The position numbers and the translations under genes were made by a program. This document shows positions 2,494 through 54,723 of a stretch of DNA of 64,000 bases, one piece after another (within the stretch, counting starts at the first letter, position 1; each line of letters starts with the position of its first letter). This DNA is from Ectocarpus siliculosus. Taxonomy: Eukaryota > Sar > Phaeophyceae > Ectocarpales > Ectocarpaceae. Below the pieces are notes generated by a model, which had not been told where the DNA came from, searched no databases, and saw only the letters and a list, made by a program, of their open reading frames with translations. The stretch lies in contig FN649758.1 in the NCBI GenBank assembly GCA_000310025.1, positions 1,281,333 through 1,345,332 on the forward strand. Reading direction: 5' to 3'.

Positions 2494-5465
2494 ATGCCAT
2501 CGAAGGTTCTGGCTAGAGCTGCTGCAACCTTTTGGTTGATGGCTGTGCTACTGGGTGGCCAGGCAAGCTCGGCGGCCGGTGCCCTAGATGCGGGTGGAGA
2601 GGAATGCAGGACCGTCCCGCAGCTGCCTTCGCACGTGCAGCTCAACAACGGGGTCAGCAGTGAGTCTCGTCCGTACACTCTGGTGTTGGTTTTCGGTGCA
2701 CGGCCATCGAAATCCCACTCGTGCCGTCTCCTTTTTTCCTATCTCCGCTATTTGAGCTCGTAGTACTTGTCACAGGCGACGTTCACACCGATAACTCCGA
2801 TTGCCGGGCATTTGCCGTATTTCGATCGTCTGTACGTGTTTGTCTCTTCTTTGTCGCTCCGTTAGTCCCGAGGATAGGTTTTGGCACCGCCGGGCTCGGG
2901 CAAGCGACAGAAGAGGCGGTCGCAGTGGCCCTGACGGCGGGCTATCGGCACATTGATACGGCACAGGTATTTTACATAGCCGTTACCTGCGTTCGTCTCC
3001 TCCTGCCTCTGTGGCTCTTGAATAGATTTTCTTTCCTCCAACTTCAAACTCAAGTAGCCAGCGCTAGGAAAGAGACACGCTGTACCAGAGATAGGTTGTA
3101 TTTGTGGGGTATTTCGTCATCCAGTCCACAAGAGATGTTGTGTCTAGCTCGCCGCGATCTGCGGGTTGGTACGTGAAAACTCTGTGCCCGGGCCACAACA
3201 TATATTTCGACAACTTTCGTGTGCTCTTTGAAAGCTGCTTCATGTGTACGGGTAGAGATTAGCCGCCATGCTGCTCTGCTGCCCTCTTGGGCATGGGGTC
3301 TTCCACATGCATGTATCAGGTTGATTTACCTTTGCTCCTGACTGATGGTTACCAGGTCATCTGACGTTTCCGCAGGCCCAGGAATGGTACAGAGAAGGGG
3401 CTGTTGGCAGGGCGCTCAAGCAGGCGACTTCGACGAAAACAGATTTGTCGCCAAGGGAAGAAAAAGGAGAATCGTTCACAGCGATGTCGGGGGCGACGCT
3501 TTTGCCTAGAGAGCACGTGTTTGTCACGACTAAGATACACCCGAGGGATTTCGGCGCCGAGCGGCTGGGTGCCATGGTGGAGGCCTCCAGCAGCAATTTG
3601 CAGGTGAGCAAAGCTTTCGTGTTGTGGCTGGATTTTCGGATTTTCCTTGCCCGGTTTTTCGTTCCTGCAAACTGCGAAACTGCGTCGTACCCGTCGTCGA
3701 AAGCTCACGTTCTTGGCTCGATTTTAAGGCCTGTCGGTGAACGACTGCTTCCGAAATTCGTCACCATCAAGACTACTCGCTTGTATTGTAGCGAGGTCGG
3801 AGAAATTTATTGCAGACCTCCGACTCCGGCTCCCTTCCCATCCGATCCTCACGTCCGGTTCCTCTTTTTTTGTTTTCGCTGAAAACCTTTCAGGGGGTTG
3901 ACCTGCTCCTGCTTCACGCCCCGTTTTGCTGGCCGGGGTCGTGCCCAGTCAAGTGAGTTCATACCAAGGCGTCATCACTGCGTTGAAACTATGCGAGTTG
4001 GAGCTAAAGACCGCCGAAGGTTGAAGATTGTCGGTTCGTTCCTTAATTTCGGCCATAGGTAAGGCTCGTGTTTGGCTTGGCCGGGTTCAAGTTTTGATGC
4101 TCATATACACGTACGCATAGTATCGACGTTCGATGGTGCTTAGAGATGGACCAGCTCGCCTCGCCCGGACCGGTTTGTCCTTGTTTTCCCAAACAACCAC
4201 CTTTATCCTGATTATTTCGGGGGGGCGAGTCCGAAGACTCTCCTCGCAACTACCGGTACCGTTCACCATCATTCTTGAAAACGGTCGCAGAAGGGTTGGC
4301 CAGCCAGATAATGTCAACTCAACGGGCGAACCCAAAACATTGTTTCTTGAATCAGCAATCGCGACTTGCCTTCGCCGTTGTTTGGGGCGGTGGTGACGGT
4401 ATGCTTCGACAGCCCGGCCCCGTGGCAAGATGCTTGGCGACAGCTGGAAGACCTATACTCCAAGGGAGCGGTAAGGGCTATCGGGGTTTCGAACTTCTCG
4501 GAAAGCTTGCTCCGAGAATTGCTAGGGATGGCGACTGTCGCCCCCGCGGCGGTGCAGAATTGGATGGACCCGTTTCACCAAGACAGGGCAGTGCGAGCGC
4601 TGTGTGCCGAACACGGTAAGCGGGCCATCCCGGTCGGTCTGTCGCGTTTGCCGATTTGCTTTGTACATCTGCATCTGCAGCGAGGTTAACAGGGTACCGG
4701 TCCAAGGTGGGGTGACTACTGTGATCGATACACGTGTTCTTTGCTCAGGTGGCACTCGGGGAAAGCAACGGGTCGAACTGTTGTCTCTTACACCGTGCTC
4801 CATAGTAACTCACTTACCCTGTACGCGTCTTATCATATGTCGGTGACTCAATTCGTGTGGGAGTGGGGAGTGGTACTGTAGTGGGGAGAAAATAGTACCC
4901 TTCTTCATGTAGCAAGTCTAAACCGCGGGGTGATAGGCCAACCTGTTCCCGCCTACTGCTTTGACAACGCCTTCGTTTTTTCTTCTCAACCTCTTACTTC
5001 ACGATCTACCCTTGATATCCACTCACCCCCTCGCGTGAAGGGATTGCTTACATCGCCTACAGCACCCTAGGTGGACAGTGGGCACACCGGCCGTCGTCTT
5101 CATCGTCCCCAAACCCGGTTTCTACCGACCCCACCCTCATCACGATCGCCTCGGCGCATGGCACATCAATACAGACGGTGGCGCTATCGTGGGCCCTACA
5201 GAGCGGGGCGATCATTCTCCCACGGTCGTCAAACCTAGACCGGATCAAAGGAAACCACCAAGCTTTCATGAAAGTTGATGGTGCCTTTTCCTCCTTGAGA
5301 GATAGAGGTGACCGGCAGTCGGGGGATGTCGGCGATGGTGGTGACAGTGCGAAGCAACGGTGCGGCACAGCAGGAGAGTCCAATAATGGGGTAGTGGTTG
5401 AAGTATTTTTGACAGTTGATGACATGCGTGCGGTGGATCGTTTGGATGGCAGCATCGGAAACTGA
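2494..5465 (+). CDS. aldo/keto reductase, six exons, with N-terminal signal peptide
   Basis: NAD(P)H-dependent carbonyl reductase of the AKR superfamily. My model joins 2494-2659, 2866-2966, 3376-3603, 3894-3952, 4413-4615 and 5041-5465; all introns are GT-AG, phases agree, and the product is 393 aa. The start is the first ATG before the hydrophobic N-terminus. Residues 1 to about 31 look like a signal peptide (WLMAVLLGGQASSAAG). The mature part opens with the classical LNNGVSIPRIGFGTAGLG. The catalytic tetrad is visible: Asp86 (HIDTAQ), Tyr94 (EWYREG), Lys142 (VTTKIHP), His173 (LLLLHAP). GAVRAIGVSNF and GIAYIAYSTLGGQW are also family motifs. The Asp-Tyr spacing is eight residues, three more than in textbook AKRs. 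About 80 C-terminal residues are Gly/Asp-rich and unlike the family. It converges with the NRPS-like gene downstream. Substrate cannot be inferred; the signal peptide suggests entry to the secretory or plastid route. Family call is firm, exact junctions good. Confidence 0.88.
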
Positions 5466-6376: not shown

Positions 6377-9300
6377 CTACCGCGAATAACGGTGAAGTAC
6401 CTGCCCAAGGTCATGAACCAATAAACACTCCCCGTCACTACCTCGCACCGACCCTTCCAAATCTTTTCCCGCCCTGAAACATCCTTCATCGTCTACGGCC
6501 CGAAACCCATGCCGCTCGTAGAAACCCACACTTTCTGAAAGTGCGCGGACACGCACGTGAGAGTCTCCAACCTCGCGGGCCTCTGCTAGTACACGTGCAA
6601 CCAGCGCCGCTCCCAGCCCTCGGTACCGCCAGCGGCTTTCAACAGCTAAAACCAACAATTCTCGCGAAGGGGCTGGCATGACGCTTTTCGCTGGTGGTTC
6701 TTCGTTCTCAATCCTCCGTTCTATGGACACGACGTCTCCGGCACCCCTCTCTACCGGCTCCTGCAAGTTGTCCCCGCCGCGTGGGTTCGTGTACCGACGC
6801 CAAGACATGCACGCCGCAACCGTCCACGCTGGATCTTCATCAGCGCGTGCTGCACCATCGGGAGCGTCAACCTGCCCTGGTTCTTCTAGTGCTGTTTTCG
6901 TCGACGAAGCCACTACTGCTGTTGCTTCTTCGGGCGTTCCTGATCCACAGGCCGTCGCTGGAGCAGTCAAGAGAAGGAAGGCGGCCTGCCCTTTCTCTTC
7001 ATCCTCGATCATGTACCTTGTAGCCCGTCCAGATGAGGCTAGGCCGGGAAGACTACGTGCCAGCAACGCCAACATCTCGCTATAGTGCTGCCCAGTGCCC
7101 CGTCCAGCCTGCACCAACTGCCAACGCTCGCCCGCAGCGAAAGCGACAGCATGGATTCGAGGTGTGTCAGATCCATCGTCGGTGGCGGTGTCGGAGTGTG
7201 CGGTGAGCGAAGCCGCAGAATGTTTGGCGATTATCCCTGCCTGTTGCCGCCGGCACCCTAAGAGCATTCCCGGCGGCACACCTGGCGCAAGAACTTTCTC
7301 AAACAAAATGACGTCGGCATGCTCTTCCGCCACCCGTGCGAAGGGTCCCGGTTGTGTGCTGCGCTCTCGCCCGTGCGCAGTGGCAGAGTGTTCACCCGCT
7401 GAAAACAACGCCGGCGCTTTTCTTCGCGAAAGACACCGCCAAGGCGAACCCTCCGAAGTTTGGTCATCGAGAGGGTGGTACGTCTGGACGGGAGATATCC
7501 GGGCTACTTCTCTGAACCCTAGCTCGCGAGCAACATGTGCGGTGACCGCATTTGTGCAGATGGTCACGGCGCGGAGAAACCCCCCGGCGGATGCATCGCG
7601 TAGAAGTTGCCGTTCTAGCATCTCCGCCATGAGAGCAGTTTGCACCCCGCCGTTGCCTGTATTGCTTGTTTTACCTCCAGCCACCCTCTCTACCCGGTGC
7701 TGGCTCGTTCCCTTGCCCATCTCTCGTTGGCCCGGGCGACACCCTGTCTCTGATATATACATGACATCGCCCGGCGCATAAGCCCACCCTCTCTCGTACT
7801 GGTATATGCTTAGGAGCTCCATGACCAGGGCGGAAACCGGTCGCAGCATTGGCTGGAGTGGCAATCCCAACAGGAATTCTGTACTCTTCTGCCACGGCGT
7901 CGTGCCGGTGCGACGGCGAAAACTCGTGGGCCCACTTCTTCCTGCCCCCGTTTCTCCCCATGGATTCCCTGCTTCAGCAACGCTGCTCGCGAGGAAACCT
8001 GAGCCCTGGGCGGATTCAGTCAGCTCTGTTCCGATGGTGAAGCCAAGGACTTGCCCGCTGGTATTGTCGGTCGCAACCAACACTCGCCCCCCACCCCGCC
8101 GGAGCGAATCAATGCTGCGGCCAACCAACTGCTTGTGGCATTGCCGAACAACCGCGGCTCCCACCGGACCCAGAGTAGCACGGTAACGGGCGAACCTCGA
8201 CGAGAGAAGGGGCTCGTTGTTCAGAAAGACGCTGCTGACGAGGGCCCGCGTCTCCATCAGTACGGTCTCGGTGATTGGCCGAATGGTAAAGGTTGCGCCC
8301 GTATCGCTAGCGCTGTCTAAAGCTCCGCGTTCGTCACCACCCTCTTTATCGTTGCTCGTGCCAATGCTGCCACCTTTGACACGCGCACACCCGGCGACGC
8401 CGAAGGTCTGCAGCCGTTCCTCTCCGGCTACAACGTCACCACACTGCTGTGTCTTGTCATCCTCAGCTTCGGCGCCAACAGTCAGTGCCAGCCACTGAGC
8501 CAGCGCTCGGGCGCTCGGGTGCGAGTACAAGTCCATCAGGCCTACATTGCACGAAAAAATGCGTCGGAGCTCGTGCACAAGGCGTACTGCTTGAACAGAA
8601 GAAAGACCCACTTCCACAAACAGGTTGCTGTCGTCGCCAATCTGGTTTCGCTCGGCAAGCATATCCAGACGGTCGTAGGACTGAATCGTGCGTACCACGG
8701 CCTCGTTGATGAGACTCATCCCCTTTTCGACACTGATGTCACGGACGCTTGTCGATCCTTGGCGGGTGCCAGATACCACCTGGTCGGAACCATCGCTGCT
8801 GGCAATTCCGCGATGATGATGCCAATGTTTGGAAACCATCCTCCGTACCTCCCGACGATCCACTTTCCCGCTACCCAGGAGGGTTGGCATGGTCGAGACT
8901 GCAACGACGATCTGCGGTACTGCAAAACTCGGCAGGCAGCGTCGGCACTCGGCCAGGACAAGATCGGTGTCCACTGTCTCGGGTGAAACTACCACGCCGA
9001 CTACGTCTCCAACCCCCGAATCGGAGCCTTCCTTACCGCCGCCACCGTGCTGTTCGGTTAGAGCGACGGCTGTTCCCAGGGTGACGCCCCCGGACTGAAT
9101 AAGGCAAGCCTCCACCTCTGACAAGTCGAACCTGCGACCATTGATCTTGATCTGTTGGTCAAGGCGTCCCCGGCACACAAGACTCCACCCTCCGCCTTTT
9201 TGGCTTCTTTCGAACGATGCCAGGTCACCTGTACAGAAAAATCGAACTTTCTGCCCGTGTTGACACCCAGATTTGATGTCTTCACCATCACCACGCGCGT

Positions 9301-10731
9301 CTCCGTCACCATGTGGTTGTAACGTCGGGGTGTTCACATGCAAGGGCAAGGCCTCCGTAGGATCGCTTGAACAAAGTTCGTAACACGAAGACGCCGAGTC
9401 CCACGTGTAAGAGGGGAAGCATTCTCGCGTCGCCGTCGGTCTCCCCCAGTACCCACGCGCTAGCCCAGCCCCCGACACGTACAGCATGCCCACACGCCCC
9501 TGTTCTTCGGGACCGATCCTGAGCAGGCTTTGCGGCGGGCTTTCGTCGCGCGTGGGTATTTCATCCCGTCGCTTGTGATGTTGCGCCACCTCCAATAGCT
9601 CCACGCCACAGTTAGAGATAGGTCGACCGATGGGAACGCTAGGCGGGTTCCTGACCCGTTCCTCTGCGCCTTGTTTGCCGTCGCTCGTGGCCAAGGCATC
9701 ACTTTGACAGCTCAAACTGAAAAAAGTAATGTCTGCCGCCACCTCAGTAGATCCGTAGAGGTTCAGCAGAGTTGAATTAGGCATGGAGAGCCGTGCTAGG
9801 CTGCGGGCCACGGCCCACGGCAGCGCTTCCCCAGAGAGTATCCAAAGCCGAACGTTCTTGAAAAACGCAAGTCCTCCCGTCGTCGTAGAACCGTGGTTTT
9901 CGTCGTTCATCTTCGCCGAGATGCTACGTTCGGAGGCCATCCCGAAGTTGGAAGGCACCATAAGTGCTGCTTCGGCAACACGTCTTGCCAGCGTCGGGAC
10001 CAACGTTATCCGTGTAACGCCGTGGTTGATGATAAAACTTTTCAACAGCACTGGGTTCTTCCGCACCGCGGACGGCACGACGATAATCGGAATGCCACAC
10101 GACAGTGGGCCAAAAACCTCCGCGACGAAGTCGATGAAAACGTGTTCCACCCGTTGGCAGCATACTTCGTCCTCTGCGAATGGCCACCGCTCTCGCATCC
10201 AGCGGAGGCGATTCACCATGGGGCCGTGACCAGAGGAAACCCCCTTTGGTTCTCCCGAAGAACCCGACGTGTAGTAGAGGTACGCGTCTCCATTGCTGGC
10301 GGCTGGCTTCTCGAAGTTATCGAAAGAGGTTGACACATCATCCTCACTGTCGCAGAGCACGGGGCCGTCGTCCGCTGCTGTTGCTTCCAACCTTCGGATA
10401 TCCAAAATCGAAATGTTTTGGCAACTTGCCTTCATCGCGACGACAGCGCTTTCTTCGTCGGTCACGAGCACTACCCTCACCATGGCATCCGCAAGGATGC
10501 TATCGATCCGGTGTACCGGAGCCTCGGCGCTTAAAGGAACGACTGTGCGACCCTCCCACAGAATCGCAAGCCAAGCCGCGCACAGCGAATGTCCGCCGCT
10601 CGCTGCGAGAATGCCAATGTTGTGCGCCGGTGCATCATTTGACCCGACTCGTTCCAATTGCGAAAGGGCGCGCCTGATTGCCCGCGCAAATGCCCGCAGC
10701 TCAGCAAATGTGTGACCACACTTTTCATCCT
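6377..10731 (-). CDS. Ebony-like NRPS: adenylation - carrier - GNAT - GNAT
   Basis: A 4.3-kb uninterrupted frame (numbering from a TTG at 10741, 1454 residues). No in-frame ATG precedes it, so the 5' end is probably an unseen exon spliced to an AG at 10732-10733. Adenylation domain, residues 1 to about 640: A1-like HTFAEL, A3 TSGSSGEPKG (158-167), A5 YGSTE (329-333), A7 TGDL (504-507), A8 GRLDQQIKINGRRFDL (525-540), A10 Lys626 in GSGKVD. Carrier domain about 675-755, with Ser715 in VGLSSVQAVRL as the phosphopantetheine site. First GNAT about 817-1095: NNEPL (841-845) and TNAVTAHVARELGF match arylalkylamine N-acetyltransferases, but the CoA loop near 1000-1010 is degenerate and followed by an insert. 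Second GNAT about 1195-1420: RYRGLGAAL (1372-1380) and GFYERHGF are typical. In Drosophila Ebony, adenylation-carrier-GNAT couples beta-alanine to amines. I infer a similar amine-acylating enzyme; the substrate is unknown. The lack of introns contrasts with its neighbours. Confidence 0.85.
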
Positions 10732-10741
10732 GACGGGTCAA

Positions 10742-11005
10742 GAGCGCGCAGCAAGCGTTGGGTGAAAGTGGGGAGGGTGATCAGGTGGATCAAGAACACA
10801 GAACGATGAGCACAGAAGTTACGCGTAACTTGAATAGCGGCACTGAGTTGAACAGGAGGAAAAATGAAGAGAGTTCGGGTAGCACCCTGGGTAACGAGAG
10901 AAACTAACGACCTCATCCGCACCTACAGTTTTATCATGTCCCCTGCTGTCCAATTCATTCGCATCGCAGAAACGGTACACTTGACATCCGGAGAAAATAA
11001 AGCCC
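10742..11005. other. 5' flank of the NRPS-like gene; first exon unresolved
   Basis: The missing N-terminus of the NRPS-like protein should be encoded here or further upstream on the minus strand. A short minus-strand ATG frame near 10958-10930 ends at a GT and could be a first exon, but I cannot support it by homology. No other feature was seen. Confidence 0.4.
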
Positions 11006-11013
11006 GTTTCGGG

Positions 11014-11510
11014 TAGAGATGGGCACCGTTTAGAAAAAACGGATACACCCGGTTGACTGGAAACCCAGTAGGCGTCTATCGGTTACGGTTCTAAAAAAAC
11101 GAAACTGGAGAAATTCGACAAGGAGGGTTTTCAACCGGTTATACCCGGTTAACCGGTTAACTGGCGCTAAGAAAACCGCTTGTATTGTACACCGTTTCTT
11201 ATTAGAGTAGCGCCTCCTAGCCAGTCTTTCCCATTCTTGTTGTTCCCTTCCGGTGCCCATCTCTTCTCTGGTACTACGACAATTATGGTGCACGTGAATC
11301 TCTGCACAAACACCGGCAGGGTGGTTGAAATACGGGCATGCATGCTACGAAGCCACCAGACCCAGTTTTGAAATATTGCGGAGGCGTGTCCTTTTTTGAA
11401 CCGGTTAACCGGGACTGAAAAAACCCGGATATGTCGGAGTTTTATTTTGAGAACAACGCCTCCTAGCAGGTTATCGGTTATTGTTTTTTCACGTCCGGTG
11501 CCCATCTCTA
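11014..11510. mobile_element. hAT-type MITE, 497 bp, with 8-bp target site duplication
   Basis: Perfect 15-bp terminal inverted repeats, TAGAGATGGGCACCG at the left end and its complement at the right end, are flanked on both sides by GTTTCGGG (11006-11013 and 11511-11518). The 8-bp duplication and the TAGAG start are the established hallmarks of hAT elements. There is no transposase frame, so it is non-autonomous. The interior is rich in AACCGGTTAA-like palindromes. A block near the right end (CGCCTCCTAGC ... GGTGCCCATCTCT, about 11457-11510) also occurs internally at about 11210-11270, so the right half appears duplicated inside the element. Confidence 0.85.
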
Positions 11511-11518
11511 GTTTCGGG

Positions 11519-14430
11519 TCGAGGCTCCTCTTGTTACTTCGTTGCCACCGTCGAGCATAGGATATTTGTAGTAGAGAACTAGGAGCAAGGATTGGCACCA
11601 CGCCCCCCAATGGGTTGGCGGCCAGAATGTGACGGATGGTTGTGGAGACGAAGAAGTAAGGATGAGGTGCAAATTCCACGGGTGTTTCGAGCTGGTTTGG
11701 TGCTCTTAAAGAGGGCGAAGAGGGTGGGCCACTTGCTGCCCAACAGCGAAAATGAGAAGAAATGGACAATAAATAGTAACAGACGAATATAAGGAAGTTG
11801 ATTTCGAATGATTCAACAAGACGTTTTTGTGCAAGCGTGCAAAATTCCCGCCGGCACACCCTCCGTAGGAAGTACATACTCGAACATGAAGGAACGTCTT
11901 ATGGGAAAAGCTGAGAAGATAGCTAATTTGTTTTGGTGATGAAACACCGAAAACTCCACAATATCAGTGATCACCAACCATGTCGCCGAAACAAGGCCAG
12001 AGAAAGAGGGAAATAAGTCCCTGCCTGTAGGTGTGTTCAAGCGCCAAAGAGAAAAAAGGCCATTCCATCGTGTTGTTAGAAACGCTGGGTGGGGTAACTT
12101 TCACGAAGAACAGCCGCAATGTCGGAGCACATCTACTGTGTATACTCCTAGGCGCCATTGGTGAAAAAGAATAAAGCGCCCCCGCAACAGATAGGAAAAA
12201 AGAAAACAACGGTGTAATGAAGGTGTCCCAACAAAAGAAGGATCACCAATGTCGTGTATATCGTGGACAGTGTTTCTCTTTCGCCAGAGGGCGGACGATG
12301 TCGAAATACAGCGCTGAATATGTCGAATCGACCAAGCACACATACCATTATGTCATCAAGATGATTTATTTATTTGTAGGAAGTCACCGTACGTCGTTTC
12401 ACTAGAAAATAGCGAGGGATTTTCTACACAATTTTCTGAGTGATTTTGGGTTATCATTGAAGGTAAGTATATACCATAATCGAGGTTTGTTTGCGGTGAT
12501 GCTAGAACAGCGACTACGAGCAGTCAAGCGCCCTTCTAACTGTGTCATTGCAGGTAACGGCTAATATCCCCACAACAAAGGTTGTCTTATAAGCTCCCAT
12601 GTGGTGTGCACAAATCACAAACAAGATCGGCGTCTGGGGTAAGGCAACGGAACGCACGATACACGCTGCTGTGTGATACACGCAGCCTCCAGCTGTGCAG
12701 CAAACAGGTATTGCGTCCTCATACGTGGGAGTCACTGCAGGTCACGGTGACATATGGACCGTGAAAACAGAACTCGTTGACGTGCACGGCCGCAAGACAT
12801 GAAGTATATGCACTGCTGTCCCAAGCACATCGGCGTCAGGGGTTTCCACAGCTAACACCGCCTGCGGCGCGATACACGCAGCCTACGCTTCTGTATGATG
12901 CACCGTACTTCCGAACGCAGATTGTTATCTCACATGTTAGGTACTTCTACGCAATATCACTCAATGGACCGCCGTCTTGGAACTCCAGGTGAAAAATGGA
13001 AGTTACGTTACGTACGTGAACTGCATGCGTGCGAACCCTAGCTGGCGGACTACATACTAAGTACCTTTATTTCGTAACTTTTCCTGCATTCCTCCAGCCC
13101 ACTCGCTCATCGTACTATTTTTCGTTTCCACCTCTTTTCTTGCGTGATTCTCTTTCGACTACGTTTTCAGTGTTCTACCACGTGCTGTTCCGTACGCGTA
13201 CATTGTGGCGTTGCAAAAGCTCTTCTGCCTGATGTAAGGGTAGCAGCTGCAAATGTAGGTCCCGAAAATCCTCCCTGTCCACACAAGAGGTGTCTTGTGC
13301 CATAGGGCATGATACTCTAGTACCTTTTTAACCGCGAAAGCCCAGACGTCAGGTTTCTCGAACCGCACACACTGCCGTTTTCTGTCTCGGTCGTGCATAC
13401 TTCCACCTTACAAACAGTCGACAAGCTCCTCCATGAAACTGTTGGTCTACTCTTTCTACAAGCCTACCCGCCGCTTTCGCCTTGCGATTCGGGCCCCGCC
13501 GTCCACTGGGGGCGGAGGGGCCCTTAATGCCCTAGTTATTATATCCAAGCGAAGAAGAACACCAACGAACAATAACAACGAACGGAAGAAGAACGCGATC
13601 ATACCTTAGAAAACGCTGAAGAAAAATTGAGAGGCATGCGTCGCAGAAAGGTTGGAAACCACATATTAGAGTTGTATCTCTTACATGAAGCATGGTAACA
13701 TCACAGAAAGACTGCTAGTGAAAAAACTGTTGTTGTGGTGTCTACATGCAAGCGACAATACATGCGAAGCTCAACTTCGGGAACGACGCAGGCAATAGGA
13801 AGGTTGACCAGAAAGGGTTATCCATGGTCTCGGCCTTATGCATGCCGTTTCCGCACCGCTTGGATGGAAAATCAGCGTCGGATATATTTGTAGACATATG
13901 AATAGCAAATACACACTACTTTCCGTGCTCTACTGATGGTGTTTACCAACACCAAACATAACAAGAAACAAGCTAACATGATACAAACTGACTGCTATGC
14001 CCTACCTACCATGCACCAGGTGTACCATTCTCATCTACTGCTGTAAACATCACTGATACGTTACCCCAAAGGATCAAATACGTTTTGCAAAATTAAAAAA
14101 AACGGCGGGAAACACCTGCTGTCCGTGAAATTAAAAAATCTGTAGATTTGAAAAACGAGGGATGTACTGCTGCTGTAGACTTCGTCCCATCTTCCATGAT
14201 TCTTACAATATTATTCCTAATATGCTCAACAAACCAGCAAGCTGTCAATAGACACTGCGCCGTGTCCCCTGTGAAGGTTACATTTTACAATACACGACAC
14301 AACGGAGGGATTCTCCCCGATACTTTGTCGTTGACCCAGTAGAGAACTACAGGGGATGTATTGTAAAATGTATGTTACCTATACAGATGTTTTTGTACTT
14401 AGCACCAGCTGGCATCACTGGTATAAATCA
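11519..14430. other. intergenic, no gene recognised
   Basis: Mostly AT-richer sequence with scattered short open frames. Between about 12480 and 12990 short diverged segments recur (for example a GATACACGCAGCCT motif), suggesting decayed tandem repeats. The 236-codon minus-strand frame at 11167-11877 overlaps the MITE and is judged to be chance. No protein-coding motif, tRNA or rRNA was seen. Confidence 0.45.
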
Positions 14431-14572
14431 TCAGTGTATAGACTTGAAAAGACTTGAAATAAGTCCAGTACCCAGCCGGTTTCCCTCCACTCACTGAAAA
14501 GACTCCACCACATCCCGTTCGACTGTGGCTATATCTCGAATGGGTAGTCTTTCTGTGTGTGTTTTTATTATT
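14431..14572 (+). repeat. dispersed ~140-bp repeat, copy 1
   Basis: Matches 21361-21505 in the same orientation over about 140 bp with moderate divergence. Shared landmarks are a TCAGTGT start, CATCCCGTTCGACTGTGG and GGGTAGTCTTT. The second half can fold as a short hairpin. No open frame is conserved, so it is probably a non-coding mobile element or its remnant. Confidence 0.65.
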
Positions 14573-14891
14573 CCTTAAAACTACACCGTCCTGTCTATGC
14601 AATCAAGGGGAAGGGCCGAGCGAGGAGAAAACAAGATACCCTCAAATCGATCATCACCTGCAAAACGCGTAATATACCATGGGCTTGCCACGGGAAGGAA
14701 CGGGATGCAACAGAAAAATATCAAAATATTCCTTCTGGCTAAATAGAATATATAAGATCATGTTGTATATGTACTCACAGGATGGTCGTCGTGACGTGAT
14801 ACATTTCTTGTTAATAGTACTGTATGGGGAAAAAAAAAAACAGATGGCTCGATTTTTGTATTTCTACAGCAGTATGGACCAGACGCCGACT

Positions 14892-15030
14892 GTACATCGA
14901 AGTCGTACGAGTATCGACTTAGTTGTGCTGTCACAGCATCTTCCACGCACTTCTGCCGGTGCTGGTTGTTGATTGGAGTCTTCTAGATCGAGATACAGCA
15001 GTGGAATTCTCGGGTTGTGGAGGCAAAAGT
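14892..15030 (+). repeat. diverged direct repeat, copy 1
   Basis: This segment is repeated at 15554-15695. Shared landmarks in order are GTACAT, TTGTGCTGTCAC, a CACGCA-containing block, CCGGTGCT, TTGATTG followed by GTCTT, and CGGGTTGTGG. No coding function is visible. A related fragment (ACAGCAGTATGGACTAGACGC) also occurs at about 15086. Confidence 0.55.
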
Positions 15031-15327
15031 GAACCGAAGCAAAAAACAATTGCATGCATAGCTTGATTACTGCTGTGTTTTTGCAACAGCAGTATGGACT
15101 AGACGCCGAACGACGTCCGCGTACTATGTCGAATTGTAGTGTGTGGGCGTGTAGTTCAGTTGTGAGCACGCAAACGTGCTGCAGGGATTGTAGGTGTACC
15201 TCCTTGGGCTTGTGTACCCTTTTCTTGCTAATAGTGTGCGTGTTCTTTAGATCTTCTGATGGCTTTAGCATTTTTGTGACCACGGGCCGAGTCTTTGCTA
15301 GATTTTGGGATTAGTAACTGACACGAG

Positions 15328-15362
15328 TTTAATGTGAAGAAAAACAACAACAACAACAACTA
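15328..15362 (+). repeat. LINE-tail-like sequence with CAA microsatellite
   Basis: TTTAATGTGAAGA followed by ACAAC repeats resembles the 3' terminus of the LINE ending at 49513. Only the last dozen bases and the tail are shared, so this may be the end of a related, strongly truncated insertion. Confidence 0.4.
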
Positions 15363-15553
15363 TGGCAACGACCTAACTGGATGGGATACTTCCTGCCACG
15401 GCGAACCATAGCACAATGCGATGCAAACATCCGTTCGTGTGTCGTGCGGCTGCCACATGTAGGTACACGTAGAGCTCTCGCCATGTTGTCGTTACCGCGC
15501 AGGAGGACTCCTCGGAGATCTTCCACATGGTGCTACAACGACACCAGTACTAC

Positions 15554-15695
15554 TGTACATAGATGTCGTAGGAGAGTGGAGTTGTGCTGTCACGGATTCT
15601 TTCACGCATTCTCCTACCGGTGCTTGCGTTGATTGTAGTCTTGTAGGCCGAAATACAAGAGTGGGTTGGGTTCCCGGGTTGTGGGAGCAAACCTG
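15554..15695 (+). repeat. diverged direct repeat, copy 2
   Basis: Second copy of the 14892-15030 segment, with the same order of landmark blocks and scattered substitutions. The two copies flank about 500 bp that include the LINE-tail-like tract. Confidence 0.55.
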
Positions 15696-15875
15696 CCTGC
15701 AACAACAGAGAAGGCGGTGTTCAATTAACTACAGTATCCCGCTCAACTTTTATTTTTTTTGCGACATGTGGTTGCATATTTCTGTGCCACTGCCGAAAAA
15801 GACCGCTGGATCTTTACGCAGTCCATCTTTCGCATTTATCACTTTACACCGAACGACGCAGGACGGGTCGGCCTT

Positions 15876-16310
15876 CATCATTGTTGTTGTTGTTGTTGTT
15901 GTCTTCACATTAAAAACCGTTCCGATCTCTCTCTACCCAGTACCTTCATATGTCCGTACTGATCCAACACTTGACGCGGTCGATTCCCGTGGTCACAGGG
16001 TAACTTACCCTAAAAAGGTACGCTCAAACAAACTGGACCCGAGGGGTCCGCAAGTCAATAGAAATCAACGACAGATACTCTGGAGTCCTCCGCTCCCTCT
16101 GCGCGCTATGCGAGGTAACAACTGAGACTAGGAGTCAGCATCACGGGCCAGAGAGAAAGAGGTACACCCCCTTGGTTCAATCTTGGTGCTTCACACGCAA
16201 GCAGAGACAAGGCCATCTGATCAGAAAAAGCGAGAAAAAAGAGCGACAAAGAGAAAAATGAGAAAAAGAGAAAAAATAAAAGGAAACAGGAAGAAAAGAG
16301 AAAATATGTT
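15876..16310 (-). mobile_element. 5'-truncated LINE copy (3' end only)
   Basis: On the minus strand this matches the 3' UTR and tail of the LINE at 46043-49513. It includes the AG-rich tract, the block around TTGAACCAAGG, the block ending in CCTTTTTAGGGTAAG, and the terminal TTTTTAATGTGAAGAC followed by (CAA)n. No coding sequence remains. Substitutions and small indels show it is a separate insertion of the same family. Confidence 0.85.
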
Positions 16311-19300
16311 ACGAGGCTATGACTTTTCTTTTTTTGGTAAGCACTTTTCTTCTTGTGAAGTTTTGACGTTGCGCTTGCCATCGTCGCTTAAGGGTTTGTG
16401 TCTTCAAACCTTCTCAGCCGGCCTTCAAACTTCTTGTTGATAAGTCTCCGTGGTAACTTCTCCGCGCATGGGTCATATGCAGTTATGACCTGCGCTTTGA
16501 CTTTCACGATGGGTATTTTACCTCCCCGTCTTGCATTGGTGAGTACCTGCGTTATACGGAAGGATCGTTCCACGACGCAAACGTCGACGTCTCCGTTTTT
16601 TGTTCGTTCCCTTCGCACTCCTTCCTTCCGGCGGTTTTCACACCGACTTCGAACGTGGGGTGCAGTTTCCTCTCTTCGTACCTTCCTCGTCGGCCTTCTC
16701 CATCGTTATGTACATAATGTATACCTCGATTTTTCGGCTTTTCGATCCGATAGACAAGGCTACGCGGACTGACTTGTCCCTTTCGCCCCCGACGGAACCG
16801 CGCGCTCGTCGAGTGCCGAAATTCTTCACCACTTCCTTGCCTCTCCCAACACCGTCCCTTCTTCCCGCCCCTACAAATCCTCTCCCCCTTTTCTTCTTCT
16901 TTCCTTCCTCCCGGACACTCACCACCATCCGTCCTGGATGTTGGCCCCCAGCCCCATTGGGGGGCGGGGAGCCAATCCTTAACCCTAGTTTTATATTACG
17001 TACGGGTAGCAAGTTCACCTGTGCGTCGGACTTGCCAATGGTAGAGGATGGCGTACGGGGCTGTTTACAATGGTTATGCGTTACTACACAAAACCTTATG
17101 TAGCTGGGTGGTGATAGGCTACTACGAGACCCTGCGTTCCGAAGCAGCCATGTCGCATGTGTGAGTACGGATGGCGTGTTACCGGAAGGTATCCTGTGCG
17201 TGTGAAGGACAAGCGCTTAATCTGATTTGTTCTCTGTGCGCTGCATACAGGTACAAACTGTAGGTTGTTCTGTTCTCCGAAAAAATGGAGCCTGGATATT
17301 GGTATGAGAGAGACGATGGTCTGTGTAACCGTGGAACGTGTACAGCAGTGTTGCGCGATGGAAAGTTCTCCGCGTAGACCCTTCACATATGAACGACACT
17401 GACAGGTCGTGCCAAGCACATGACAAGGGTGAATGGCCGTGGATGTTCAATCAGCGGCAACGCTGTCTGTGTTGTAGCGGGCGAGTTCCGCAGTGTTCAG
17501 CGTTGCCGGTTGGTCGTATGCACGACACAAAGGTTGCGCAGACATAGACTGCCAGCATGAGGATTGCAAGCTTTTCCCCGATAAATTAATAACCTACAGC
17601 TCACATGTCATTAGCCCATTTTGCCGGTCCATCTTACAGTCGGTTGTCGGTGTTTGTTTGTGTTCTGAGGCGGAATCAGAGGACTAGGAGATCCGCCGCT
17701 CCCAAAACACTTGGGCCACAGCCATATGTGCACTCTCGTATTGGACAACACCGACAAAACGCACATCGCAGCTCCATGCGGACCTCACATAGGACGCAAA
17801 TAGGCCGGGTTGTCGCGACAGGAAACTGACGTGCGACACGTTGCCCCGATGTGTGGGAAAAATAATTTGTCGACCTCAAGTGTTTCCATACAACATACCA
17901 TACCAGTAAACACTTGGTTCGCGACCGGACATGCTGTAGATATATTTCGTTGATAGGACGATGGCCCACTCGCCGACCGATGTCATTATCATGTTCTTAG
18001 GCTACCCATAGCTTGATGGCCGCAAAAAAATGGAAGATTGACAGGACAAAACCCTTGGCAACGTACATGCGCTTACCCTCGAGTCTACATCGAACACAGC
18101 AGTGCCTCCGGGGTTTCGCACCGCTTGCTGCAAGATGAGATGATGAAGGAGAGGGGAGGAAGTGGAAGGGTCACTCCTGGCGCTGCTTATGCCCTTTTGC
18201 ATGTCGGGTAAAGGTGTCAGGTGTGGTTTGGGTTGATTCGGACAGAGACGAGGCACCCCGCCCTCTCGTGATGGCCGCTCGCTGCTGCTGCCTAGGACAC
18301 CGGGCGGATGAGAGGGGCTGGCCAGATGGGCCGAAAAAAAATGGTGAATGGCGTTTATCCCTCCGTATGCTACGCCGACAGTCCGGCGAAAATTCCGGAC
18401 CCAAGGAAAATGGCGTTACGCCAGCGTATCTACCATTCAGAGCTGTGAAGTTGTGACCCTTGGTTGTGACAACGCCCGGTGCCCGCACCTCTTCCACCTG
18501 CAGCAAGGAGACGGCAGGCAAGAGTGGTAAGATTCGTGTAGGCTATAGTTGAGCGTAGCACCGGAATGAGTACAAGTGTACGTATTGACCAGCAGAGCGC
18601 GGCGTGTGTTCATCGGCCGGGTTCCATTGCTCTCACGCGGCTGCCATATACTTACTGCTGCTGCTGTAGTGCTTGGTTCTTGGCGAGACCTGACATTGCT
18701 CGCATCTGCCCTCGTGCAGCGGTGAGCCCGTTATAGAGAGGTGGCCGCAGTAGCGGGCGGGCTTCCAATGAGCAGCTTCTCCTCCCACCAAAAGGTCAAA
18801 AGGCGCAGCGCCCGTAGCACCAATCCACGGCGCACGGATCTCACATCAACCGGTGATGTTTTGACGCCACAGACCTTTTTCGTCGAGATTATGACGGATC
18901 CTTGCCGAGTGAGCTGTTGGATGTTGTCTGTCTGCTCATTGAGGGTTTGTGATAAAGACCGGTCTCGACTTGTTCACTGCTTTCGAAAAACAACCCACTA
19001 CATACACGTAGACACGTAAGCATACAACAGCAGTTTTCGGTTTTCAGGTGCTGCACGTACATTTTTCAACACAGCTGCGGTTGTTTTTATACAAGTAGTC
19101 TAGAAGCAAAACACGCCAACATTCAGAACAGAAACGTAGGTGCATGCATTTGAAGAGAGCAGGACGGAAATGGCTGGACGGGTTGAGAGATATGTCCCGG
19201 ACTGATGATCGAGGAGGTGGCAGGATTTCCAGCCGGACATATCCCTCTACTACGTCGTATCGCTACCCCCCCCTCCCCCCTCGCAGTGCCCCCGATATGA

Positions 19301-19900
19301 TATTGTAGTGTTGTCGTCTGAGTCATTGTGTGCGTGTCTCCATTTGACTAGTGGGAAGTATTGCCCCCCCCCCCAATGGGGCGGGTGGCCAGACTTCGGT
19401 TGAAGGGCGCCGGCATTCCTTCCTGACATGGTCGTGTGGGTTTGTCGATGTACAGAATTAGGTGATGATAATCAGAGGCTTAGGGTATGCGAAGACTGTG
19501 TACGTAGTCAAGAACAGTTCCGTGGTGGTGTTGCTTGTGCTAGATTCCTCGGGGTGTTCTTTTCAGCGAACGTCAGATCTGCTGAGCAGAGGTCTCACTA
19601 CAAATCAGATTATAGGATGATCACGCAAGTCTATCTGTTCAAGTGACCTGTGCTACGGCGGTAGCAGCCGTGAGGAGCAAGGCAACAGAAGTGTGTGCCA
19701 CACCTTTTTGACAGGTGTTCGGGGGTGCACTGCTGTAGACATGAGTGTACAACCAAATGTGGAATTTGATCCAAAGAGAAATGAGAGCAAGATGCCGCAA
19801 TTTTGTTGTATTGTTGAGCTGGGCAGGAAACATAGTGAACTCTGGTGGGGGGCGTGTGCGCTCTACCTGGTCAGCCGCTCTGTCAATTACCGACGAAATA
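16311..19900. other. intergenic, no gene recognised
   Basis: Short open frames occur on both strands without motifs or supporting splice sites. Short segments around CCCCATTGGGG (about 16945, 19365) recur elsewhere in the window (about 11600, 54745, 54840) and seem to be a dispersed non-coding repeat. Poly-C stretches occur at about 19265 and 19362. Confidence 0.45.
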
Positions 19901-19914
19901 TGAAGAACCTTAGT

Positions 19915-20075
19915 ACCAGTCCGGAAACGTTCCGGAAACGTTCCTGGAACCAAATACAGCTCTATAAGACTACGGCTGTTCCGCAAACGTCCCGGGAACC
20001 TTTATAATCTTATTCTGGACTTTCTTGAGAACGTTCCTAAGAACATTCCTGAGAACCGTTCTAGGGATGTGTCCC
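19915..20075. repeat. degenerate short repeats around GAACGTTCC
   Basis: The words CGGAAACGTTC, GGAACC, GAACGTTCC and GAACATTCC recur many times over about 160 bp. Many are self-complementary, so the tract is a cluster of imperfect palindromes. A similar word group appears at 23262-23300. No function is evident. Confidence 0.5.
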
Positions 20076-20297
20076 CGATCTAGGAAGCATTCTACGAACC
20101 GCTTCGGAATCTACCGCATCCATCAGTGGATCGTTCTTGATACCTTTCCTGAAATATTGTTCTGCAAGTTGAATTTCCTTCAATTAGAGCTTGTTTTTCC
20201 GCGTTTAGTCCTATACTGAAACCGGTATTGTTTTGTGCGACTGAAATCGCTCATGATGCATGTGACATCGTACACTGGGTTGTATTCAAGAGAATTC

Positions 20298-20499
20298 TCA
20301 CAGGTGGAGGTCGACCCCCTTTCCCCCTTGATAAGGTCGAACACCTTGGAGAAGACAACCAAGGCCTAAAAAAAAACTCAATTTCTCCCATTTCAAGGCC
20401 TTGGTTGTCTTCTCCAAGGTGTTCGACCTTGTCAAGGCCTCCACAAGAGGGCGAGGGCATCCGACATTGTGGGGAAGGGGGGTGGACGTCCACCTGTGA
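20298..20499. mobile_element. foldback/MITE element with perfect 35-bp stem
   Basis: Outer 11-bp inverted repeats TCACAGGTGGA (20298-20308) and TCCACCTGTGA (20489-20499) enclose a perfect 35-bp inverted repeat (20333-20367 with 20396-20430) separated by a 28-base loop. There is no open frame and no clear target duplication. The transcript would fold into a long hairpin on either strand. Most likely a short foldback transposon; a small-RNA precursor is possible. Confidence 0.7.
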
Positions 20500-21360
20500 A
20501 TACCTGTAGCGGCGGTCTTCGTCGTTGATACTGATATTTATAACAGTAGGTTGGCGTAAACATGTTGACTGGTGGCTGCCCGGTGTGAAGCGGGAGTGTT
20601 CTCGTTGTAAATCGAATCATCATTTCACCGCAGCACCCGGCAGCCGGTAGGAGCCGGCCACAGCGCCACAGCCATACGTACACCATCCGCAAGAGCACAC
20701 ATCGCAGGCCATGAGCACCACACGCAGGACGTCAGTACGCCTCATTGTCGCAGCACGAAACTTGATGCAGACGTGTGGTGACGACAAGGGATGGCATGCT
20801 GTCGCAACACGTGCTGCGTGGGGAAAAAAAACTGTCCCCATGTAGAGGGGCACTCTATAATCAAGTCTTAATGTCAGGCGACGACGACATCCTGTGATAT
20901 TTATTTAATACGATAGCTTCGGGTGGATCGACCCTTGAATGACCCACCACACGAACTGCTTTTGGATAGCCGTGTGAGGATTGGCTTCGCCGTTGCAACC
21001 CCAAGGCGGCGCATGCACTCCACCCCCCCCTTCTCTCCCTGTTCGACTTGTTTTGCTCGTTGGATGGGACCTTTCTGCTTCCTGTTTCCTGTTTCCTGCG
21101 TTACTTTTTATTTTCTTTGTCTTTTCGATTCCTTCTCGGCCGGGTTTGATGGTCTCCCGGTCAGATTTTGTTAGCTACTGCTGTACCGCGTTCGGAGGAT
21201 TTTTTCGGGTCTCCATACAATATATATATATATTCATCCTAGGGAAGTGTAACCCTATTTGGGCAGTTGGCTTGTGACCATGGACTATATCAGCTGCACC
21301 AGAACGCATATTTGAAGATACTGATCAGAGACCGAAATCTCCATCTCCGTCAAAAAGAAA
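20500..21360. other. intergenic, no gene recognised
   Basis: Short motif-free open frames and a short TA microsatellite at about 21221-21232. Nothing else was recognised. Confidence 0.45.
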
Positions 21361-21505
21361 TCAGTGTTTAGGCTTAAAAGGGCTCAAAATATGCCCGGTA
21401 CATCCGGCCGGTTGTTCTCCCACCCACCGTCAAGACTTTAAACCCATCCCGTTCGACTGTGGTTTATCCCGAACGGGTAGTCTTTTATTCATGTTTATTT
21501 TACAG
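21361..21505 (+). repeat. dispersed ~140-bp repeat, copy 2
   Basis: Direct copy of 14431-14572. Here the hairpin is clear: CCCGTTCG at 21448-21455 pairs with CGAACGGG at 21470-21477 around a 14-base loop. The sequence after the hairpin is T-rich. Confidence 0.65.
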
Positions 21506-21569
21506 AAAAGTTCTTCCAGCAGTAGGTACAGTATTGGTTACAGAGAGAAGCGGTTGGGATTTCTTTTCT

Positions 21570-21935
21570 AGCATATCATGCAGTCTGCAGTACCTCCACA
21601 TACCTTACGAATGCAGAACAAAATAATCCACACGGCGGCTCTCTGCGATAAAAACAACGAAACATGTTGGACGGAAAACCAGTTGAGGACATACAACGGG
21701 CACCGGCATTCCCCAGATCTGTTGCTGGGGCCATGTCGTCGAACGTTGAAGTTGCGGCCGGAATCGTCCGCAAATCTAGGTCCATACCATCCACGACCCG
21801 CCGCTGTGCGTGCCACCACAAACGCAAACCCCCGAACTGTTTGCGGTCCAAGGCAAGAAAGACTGGTGTAAACCCGCAGTTAGAAGAGATTGCGAGTTCT
21901 GCGGTGGAGTATGCATGGTTTGGACGTAGGTTCAC
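21570..21935 (-). pseudogene. possible retroelement polyprotein fragment
   Basis: A minus-strand frame contains AYSTAELAISSNCGFTPVFL. It resembles the region of LTR-retrotransposon integrases where an Ala-Tyr-Asn motif is followed by a G(F/Y)(T/S)P(F/V) block. Sequence before and after is not recognisable as pol, and there are no LTRs. The resemblance is short and could be accidental, so treat as a weak relic call. Confidence 0.25.
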
Positions 21936-44441: not shown

Positions 44442-46042
44442 ATTCAACTGCACAAACTTATCCTGCTACACATTCTTTTTTATGCACGTTAGGCACCACT
44501 CCTTTCGCGCAAGAAAGCTTCGACCCCTACGCATTTTCAGTGCTGAATGCTGTTTCAACCCATGGCTCCGGCGTGCCATTCCCTGGAAAAACAGCCCTGC
44601 ATGCTTGTGTAAAGCACTCCTTGCGAGCGAGTTGGACGCCCATCCCAGCCGCACCAAGCTTCTTTGCTGCGTCGAAGCAACACTGGGGGCGTGAGTGGTT
44701 ACGAGGAACGGGGGTGCGAGGAAGTTAGTGCGCACCATCCCGCCTACCGCAAAACACGGTAACGTCGTATTGTCACAAGAAAAACTACAGAATAACGGCG
44801 CCTCCAAGAAAATACACAGCAGCCGCTCTTTCACGGCAATCAAAGATTTTCTTGGGCATGGCATGGTTTACTCATGATGTGTGAAAGATGATGTAAGGAT
44901 GCGTGCTTGCATTCTGCTCCCGAACCCTCACTCAGTTCGCGGCGACTGATTGTTCGACTACACGTATGTATAATAATGCGTACAGCAGTAGTCTAGTGAT
45001 GAGTGGGTTGAGTTTCGAGGCAAGCAGAGAGAGGTGCATGCATGTTGTGTGTACGTAAAGTCACTGCTGTTGTAGGGCTTCGCTCAATGGTAAACGCATC
45101 CAATTGGGCACGTCTACGGGCACCGAGGGCTGTCTACACTTTACAACCCAAACCTGACCCATACCAGTATGGACTAGAAGACGTAGCAGTATCGTGCCCT
45201 ATGCATCAGCAGTGATGCCCGTATCCGCGTTTGCTGCTATGTATGCTTACCTGATTGCGGAAGACATTGGACGTGACGCCAACACCACGCCTCTCCGCAG
45301 TAGCGGCCACATCCGCGTAGGTGACGCCAGCAATCGCCACCGCATGGTAGACTCCACAGAGTCCAGGGTGCTCCTTGGCGGCTTGGGCGCGCTGATCGCG
45401 CGTCAATCCTGTTGGTAAGGCCGCTGGCGGCTCGTCGTGATTACATGACGCCGTTCCGACCGCAACGGCAGCATCGAAGACAAATTCTCGGACGCGCGCG
45501 ATATCATGCTCGTACGCCTCCTTGACCTGGACAAGAATGTCATGGCTGTCTCCACCCGTGAACTCCTCAACGAGGGGAGTGCTGGGGTATGCGTTTGCTG
45601 CCATGGGCTATCGTAGTGTGGCGTTGGACAGGAGGAGTGGAAGCGGAAGAGGATATCGGCGCGATGTGCGGCAGGTGCTCGCTGCAGCCCAGCAGGTTCG
45701 ACAGCGAAGGTGCGCCGCGTCGATCGGCGCTTGGTCAGAAAGCGCTACCAGGGCCCGACTCGAAGAAGCACCTTGCCCACCGATGAAAGGAGGCTCCGTG
45801 CAACGTAGGGCTTTGGTTTGAAGGTCTCGCGTTCCCTCTAGAGGAATATCTTGAATGCCTCATTTTCCTCCTTTTCGTGCCCCGTTTACCACGCTTGGGC
45901 CAGTTGTTGTCTAAAAGCGCCATCAAATGTCCCCTCGATATTCGGGGACATTTGATAGGGCTTTTAGACTTGAGTCGGCTCCGGCGGGTGCTGTTCTCTC
46001 CCTTGCACACCGGCCACGGACTGTCCACCATTGCCCAATCAG
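44343..46042. repeat. right arm of the palindrome (inner part)
   Basis: Reverse complement of 42548-44247, almost base for base. It ends in CCCAATCAG at 46042, where a LINE begins. The remaining outer part of the arm resumes at 49514. Confidence 0.93.
44527..45604 (-). CDS. unknown protein, two exons, copy 2 (right arm)
   Basis: Mirror copy of the gene at 42986-44063: exon 1 is 45604-45251 and exon 2 is 44682-44527. The predicted 169-residue protein is the same as far as I compared it. The two copies converge, with stop codons about 460 bp apart on either side of the palindrome centre. Whether both are transcribed is unknown; convergent transcription through the centre could give double-stranded RNA. 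Confidence 0.6.
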
Positions 46043-54350: not shown

Positions 54351-54723
54351 GGATCCAACACAAGCAGTTTTCCCCACAGTGGTATCGCTCCGCGAACGCT
54401 TCGAAACAAGTCACCTCTTGCTGGCCGTGCTGCCGTCATTGCCGTCGCGGAGCCTTCGTTGCCGTCGAGGATCTGCCACAAATATGGAGCACGCAGCAGC
54501 ATGGAGCCAATCACTATGCACGAAACCTGCTTATATGTCGCTGCATTACGTTTTCATGTACCTAAGACAAGCACACGCATGAGCCGCCTAGCAAGCAGGA
54601 CAGATTCAGTCAAGCAAAAGAACGTCGACACACTCGTGTTGTCACCAGTGCCTGGTTCACAATGCCGAGACTCCGCCAGGTGCAACGAATGGTTGTTAAA
54701 TTAGCTGGCTGTCAGTATATCTA

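Follow-up and report, generated by a model that had tools for sequence, protein, structure and literature searches.

An adenylation-carrier-GNAT-GNAT protein of the brown alga Ectocarpus siliculosus as a candidate Ebony-like synthetase of beta-alanyl amines

Results

A stretch of 64,000 nucleotides from the genome of the brown alga Ectocarpus siliculosus (GenBank assembly GCA_000310025.1, contig FN649758.1, positions 1,281,333 to 1,345,332; hereafter the window) has a long open reading frame on its minus strand. From stop to stop, the frame spans 1467 codons (10780..6380) and is closed by the stop codon at 6379-6377. The main exon (6377..10729) encodes an adenylation (A) domain, a carrier (T) domain, and two GNAT domains, GNAT1 and GNAT2, in one frame. 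An earlier, sequence-only reading had taken this protein for an Ebony-like nonribosomal peptide synthetase (NRPS) with two C-terminal GNAT domains, and the residue numbering used here is that of its 1454-residue frame, starting at 10741. All features of the gene given below are on the minus strand. The single long frame is genuine, as that reading had assumed: its 1454 codons are free of stops, while 60 equally long windows generated by a first-order Markov model had no stop-free run above 371 amino acid residues.

The frame has no usable ATG, the first Met being residue 87. The match to the AMP-binding model begins only at model position 20 of 384, and a likely splice acceptor (cccgtcag/gat, read by eye) is located at about 10730. 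Thus, at least one upstream exon, carrying the start codon, is evidently missing from the frame. No convincing N-terminal A-domain stretch was found up to window position 17000, by eye and with a simple pattern. The earlier description of the gene as one exon is therefore right as far as the four domains go, whereas the complete gene has at least one further exon upstream. A search of the 189-Mb genome of the alga returned, besides the frame, only a weak match to a second adenylation gene, indicating a single copy. The genome has a brown-algal look: the EsV-1-7 domain, a hallmark of brown algae, scored 150 matches in it (from 880 candidates) and was found in 0 of 14 control genomes, those named being prokaryotes.

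The A domain (8822..10720, residues 8-640) matches Pfam AMP-binding at residues 8-432 (E 5.3e-39) and NCBIfam AA-adenyl-dom (E 4.3e-59), and it carries the motifs A3 (YTSGSSGEPKG, starting at residue 157), A5 (NLYGSTE, 327), A7 (CTGDL, 503), A8 (GRLDQQIKINGRRFDLSEVE, 525), and A10 (GSGKVDRR, 623). The carrier (T, or peptidyl carrier protein) domain follows at 8489..8647 (residues 699-751; Pfam PP-binding, E 2.4e-10). Its phosphopantetheine-attachment serine, Ser715 (8597..8599), was read from the motif GLSSV and lies exactly where it had been predicted. A condensation domain (PF00668) was found neither in the frame nor, when the genome was searched exon by exon (E <= 0.001), anywhere else; the upstream exon lies outside the frame. 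A canonical NRPS module has a condensation domain together with A and T, and the frame of the window protein shows no such condensation domain. At the C-terminal end, GNAT2 (6380..7159, residues about 1195-1454) carries inserts, and its N-terminal half was recognized by eye only. Pfam Acetyltransf_10 matches residues 1363-1422 with E 1.9e-9 (2.2e-10 as a segment search), and the acyl-coenzyme A (CoA) pyrophosphate-binding loop RYRGLGAAL (6602..6628, residues 1372-1380, read from the sequence) is kept. The Pfam match confirms the second GNAT of the earlier reading.

What does the A domain activate? The core of the substrate pocket, I203-D204-F-V-A207 (10121..10135), covers positions 235, 236, and 239 in GrsA numbering. 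In a gapless alignment with the linear gramicidin synthetase LgrA, Ile203 falls on position 235 and Asp204 on position 236, so that the Asp is moved by one residue. The whole pocket reads I-D-A-T-I-S-L-A-D, with no Asp235. This Asp is described as holding the amino group in A domains for alpha-amino acids (PMC11355689). For comparison, 42 bacterial A domains were collected by their A3 motif from seven plasmid loci, which were picked among 30 listed matches out of 892 matching records, one of them (L008) being represented by its first 34 kb. Asp235 is present in 40 of the 42 domains and shifted in two, namely a Gloeocapsopsis dulcis NRPS (L003, WP_323713224.1; VDWVISLAD) and a Roseibium module (IDTTVSFGD). 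The former is the top plasmid match of the A-T part of the window protein (E 3e-48). The latter is the fourth A domain in one frame of an NRPS annotated at 8838-21575 of a Roseibium aggregatum plasmid locus (L012); lacking Asp235, it is possibly a beta-amino-acid module. VDWVISLADK is the code for beta-alanine, although a literature search led to no paper carrying it. The mapping of the pocket looks sound, since the extracted columns also give DVWHISLVD and DLTKVGHVG in sampled domains, the codes for Ser and Asn.

In a tree of 36 distinct A domains (43 rows minus seven exact duplicates), the window domain forms a clade with L003 and the Roseibium module with a support of 100/97, and within it the window domain and L003 pair with 99/92; L003 was flagged by the tree for unusual composition. 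Identities to the window domain over the adenylation part are modest: 77/176 for L003 and 60/173 for the Roseibium module, against 62/176 and 64/171 for two other domains that have Asp235. It is thus the tree and the pocket, not overall identity, that carry the grouping. The Gloeocapsopsis dulcis NRPS differs from the window protein in having a condensation-A-T module, a polyketide synthase gene in the same stretch, and no GNAT.

It was revealed that the weak second match in the algal genome is a multi-exon gene on the minus strand (G000:C4:921500-931400, L014; hereafter C4). Across its exons, this gene codes for an A domain (...FVDFVAEVF..., ...TLTPSL..., ...ISGEA..., ...LINLYGSTEV/SGDAT...) and a carrier-like stretch, GELGGTSLLA, which was seen by eye and was not reported by Pfam PP-binding. 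One exon matches PF13570, the beta-propeller of the ACSF4 'beta-alanine-activating enzyme', with E 6.6e-59, which passes the cut-off, while the match of a second exon (E 8.7e-17) fails it. The C4 pocket, read across exons, is V-D-A-T-I-S-L-G-D, with the same shifted Asp as the window protein. When the A3-A5 part of C4, its exons joined by eye, was added to the tree (37 sequences), the window domain and C4 grouped with 99/87 inside a clade of the window, L003, and Roseibium domains (99/97). The identity between the two algal domains is 66/168. These results support a kinship of the window A domain with the ACSF4/AASDH family of beta-alanine-activating enzymes and a pocket of the beta-amino-acid type. 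The two proteins share the A-domain class, a nearly identical pocket (VDATISLGD in C4 and IDATISLAD in the window protein), and a carrier, that of C4 being recognized by eye. In contrast, ACSF4 ends in the PF13570 propeller, while the window protein has no PF13570 match and ends in GNATs.

GNAT1 (7457..8293, residues about 817-1095) directly follows the carrier. When 72,556 plasmid records were searched with this domain by tblastn (E limit 10), a Sarcina GNAT was the single match (E 0.06). Both proteins have FLNNEPL; they share 28 identical residues over 95 columns, with a pairwise E of 8e-8. The Sarcina GNAT is encoded at 1498-2109 of locus L004, the small plasmid p3 of an isolate from a chimpanzee. 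It matches Aedes AANAT2, an arylalkylamine N-acetyltransferase (AANAT), with E 4e-12 over its residues 2-173 and the chlorovirus protein A654L with E 2e-8 (best over 120-181). A two-sequence profile of the Sarcina protein and GNAT1 picks up A654L via the C-terminal region of GNAT1 (3.9e-6). With a hidden Markov model (HMM) of four sequences, Sarcina and three insect AANATs, GNAT1 scored 12.4 bits, which none of 2000 shuffled sequences reached. Among 1534 control pieces taken from the reading frames of the window and ten loci, only two exceeded 4.1 bits, and both came from the same frame as GNAT1 itself: a piece with the start of GNAT1 (9.9 bits) and a GNAT2 piece (8.7 bits). The best piece from outside the frame reached 4.1 bits and came from a locus (L007) that had been selected for a partial motif match. 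The hhalign score of GNAT1 against the four-sequence AANAT profile was 42.9, reached by none of 200 shuffles; GNAT2 scored 29.0 against the same profile and two other parts of the protein scored below 12.

The motif of insect AANATs (Dm-AANATA, Aedes AANAT2), DEPL(N), keeps E-P-L in GNAT1, with the first Asp replaced by Asn. Glu843 of FLNNEPL (8213..8215) corresponds to the motif's Glu, the catalytic residue known in the insect enzymes. The C-terminal half of GNAT1 (ICTNAVTAHVARELGF, 1061-1076) resembles the end of a GNAT by eye, and it gave a weak second HMM domain of 0.8 bits. The pattern F..[DN]EPL is shared with the insect AANATs and with A654L, the latter also having a C-terminal CTN stretch in common with GNAT1. 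In contrast to these free-standing enzymes, GNAT1 is fused to an A-T unit, heavily interrupted, and below the level of direct detection. It is quite likely that GNAT1 is a strongly diverged AANAT-type GNAT with insertions.

Scans of genome contigs for relatives yielded no accepted candidate. In the first, 45 stretches fitted a pattern and none was confirmed; in the second, 39 stretches led to one locus, whose protein is unrelated and has the stretch RPITEKYLD by chance. Viral contigs scanned with P0001, alignment A1, the A654L fragment, and the Sarcina protein gave no relatives.

Several other genes were found in the window. Just past the 3′ end of the gene, on the plus strand, lie exons of an aldo/keto reductase (2664-4689); Pfam Aldo_ket_red matches 4366-4689 with E 8e-13 and 2664-3173 with E 0.0012, the latter failing the cut-off. 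A long open frame at 45974-48826 on the plus strand matches the RVT_1 reverse transcriptase (E 2e-35) and is retroelement-like. An ankyrin-repeat protein is encoded in one long open frame at 52881-54410 on the minus strand (Ank_2, E 8.5e-52).

Discussion

In Ebony, a fruit-fly enzyme of pigment and neurotransmitter metabolism, an AANAT-type, GNAT-fold domain that selects the amine stands directly after the carrier, and the protein ends after this one domain. Ebony, the N-beta-alanyldopamine synthase of insects, is a single-module NRPS without a normal condensation domain (PMC10531068, PMC6070697). The beta-alanyl group leaves AMP for the pantetheine arm, where dopamine or histamine attacks it (PMC6070697). 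Ebony and ACSF4 are described as animal NRPSs using domains other than condensation domains (PMC10531068). The window protein has the carrier serine, the single module, and the lack of a condensation domain in common with Ebony, and beta-alanine activation followed by amine attack is proposed here for the algal protein as well. In contrast to Ebony, it is brown-algal, has long inserts, and carries a second, CoA-type GNAT (1363-1422) at its end. The searches yielded no sequence of Ebony itself. The window protein may be like Ebony in design without being a demonstrated member of the Ebony family.

I consider it moderately probable that the window protein works as a stand-alone A-T-GNAT synthetase of the Ebony-like kind, extended by a second GNAT of the CoA type, and makes beta-alanyl (or other beta-aminoacyl) amines. 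The A domain would use ATP to activate beta-alanine or a closely similar beta-amino acid, and the aminoacyl group would then be tethered as a thioester to the phosphopantetheine arm of Ser715. GNAT1, with Glu843 as a base, may bind a small amine for attack on the carrier thioester, a step that would free the beta-alanyl amine with neither a condensation nor a thioesterase domain involved. GNAT2, having a normal CoA loop, most likely would acylate the product or the incoming amine from acyl-CoA. At the level of the sequence, the domain order, Ser715, the shifted-Asp pocket, the kinship of the A domain, and the intact CoA loop of GNAT2 are supported. A more specific version, in which GNAT1 joins beta-alanine to a biogenic amine and GNAT2 caps it so that N-acyl-beta-alanyl amines are made by one polypeptide, is a tentative idea and rather doubtful. 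As for supporting genes, the genome has two phosphopantetheinyl-transferase matches, one of them with a stop in frame, and six exon matches to pyridoxal phosphate (PLP) decarboxylases, four of which pass the cut-off. These decarboxylases could be the suppliers of the amines. As for the DEPLN Glu, five insect AANATs are discussed in PMC6070697, and four of them lose nearly all activity when this residue is mutated; mutation and pH profiles are also reported there to support a general-base role in several of them.

Several observations weigh against the proposed synthetase. GNAT1 (817-1095) matches nothing in Pfam or the PDB at E values up to 10, and the result was the same when two stretches were left out or when the C-terminal part was searched alone. 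The part of GNAT1 that aligns is only the first 75-95 residues or so. A profile of the three insect AANATs without the Sarcina protein gave GNAT1 0.6 bits, a score reached by 20 of 2000 shuffles, so that a whole-domain match to insect AANATs was not obtained, and with this profile the piece containing the GNAT1 start was outside the 12 best control pieces. AlphaFold2 models made without an alignment were unusable, with a mean predicted local distance difference test (pLDDT) score of 38 for residues 811-1100 and 33 for 1121-1454. In the pocket, positions 239 and 278 are A and T instead of the W and V of the beta-alanine code; the same A and T are also found in a recognized beta-alanine-activating family, since C4 carries them. 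The family PF03417, that of the hydrolase Tan, has no match in the genome, and because of this an Ebony/Tan cycle is not proposed. The same domain order was not found in other genomes in scans of bacteria, archaea, and viruses with short patterns. Finally, in Dm-AANATL2 the same Glu is reported not to be the general base (PMC6070697). The AANAT-like domain that the sequence-only reading placed at 817-1095 is kept on the strength of NNEPL at 841-845, the Sarcina bridge, and the profile scores, without a direct family match. The same qualification passes on to the claim of an Ebony-related, amine-conjugating enzyme, where the beta-amino-acid-type pocket, the grouping with ACSF4/AASDH and the VDWVISLAD domain, and the lack of a condensation match stood up, while its AANAT-like first GNAT was reached only through the bridge and the profiles.

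Could the GNATs act on the carrier-bound group instead? They may N-acylate the beta-amino acid on the carrier from acyl-CoA, giving an N-acyl-beta-alanyl-S-carrier of a loading type that an unknown partner releases, GNAT1 being non-condensing. The CoA loop of GNAT2 and its stronger GNAT match fit such a role, and a figure legend in PMC8072286 has carrier-protein-mediated chemistry among the known GNAT mechanisms. However, GNAT1 directly follows the carrier and retains the Glu that handles the amine in the AANAT motif, and the genome has no condensation-domain match to carry the product onward, which makes this reading unlikely. It is less likely still that the A-T unit is an ACSF4/AASDH-like donor, charging beta-alanine for a protein or another large acceptor, with GNATs that modify proteins or regulate. 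The pairing of the A domain with the ACSF4 gene of the same genome in the 37-sequence tree speaks for it, and ACSF4 is suggested to act in post-translational modification (PMC10531068), but the window protein is without the beta-propeller, and its N-terminal motif of AANAT type suggests small amines.

The identity of GNAT1 itself may also be questioned. If residues 817-1095 formed a long, disordered linker that resembles AANATs in one stretch by coincidence, the real order would be A-T-GNAT with a single GNAT at 1195-1454, which is compatible with the other readings. The segment has no Pfam or PDB match, the sole bridge has a database E of 0.06, and an unrelated Ruminococcus protein was seen to match part of the motif by chance. 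On the other hand, the sole database match of the segment is an AANAT-type GNAT, the hhalign score of 42.9 was not reached in 200 shuffles, and the four-sequence HMM gave 12.4 bits against 4.1 for the best out-of-frame control; I regard a mere linker as improbable, somewhat less so than an ACSF4-like donor. That two adjacent genes were read as one, A-T (with or without GNAT1) and a separate GNAT2 with an unrecognized in-frame intron or a transcript end between them, would fit the long linkers. Since all 1454 codons are stop-free in one frame, far beyond the longest random run of 371, this is very unlikely.

Among the literature matches listed for Ebony, algal NRPSs, and beta-alanine A domains, no A-T-GNAT-GNAT protein is described in the titles and abstract openings. 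A survey of algal NRPSs required condensation domains (PMC4661987) and, as far as its stated requirement goes, could not have counted the window gene for that reason. A single 'Other(A)' gene is given for E. siliculosus in PMC7073580; it could be the window gene, the ACSF4 gene, or another.

If the protein is active as proposed, Ebony-type chemistry would extend outside animals, and an ACSF4-type A-T unit joined to a GNAT would be suggested as the origin of such enzymes. Beta-alanyl amines would then be expected as a class of metabolites in algae, and they could be looked for directly by mass spectrometry. If the more specific route to N-acyl-beta-alanyl amines were true, animals would not be the only organisms in which a GNAT fused to an A-T module carries out condensation; the algal version would go back to an ACSF4-type ancestor, by convergence, or share an ancient origin with Ebony.

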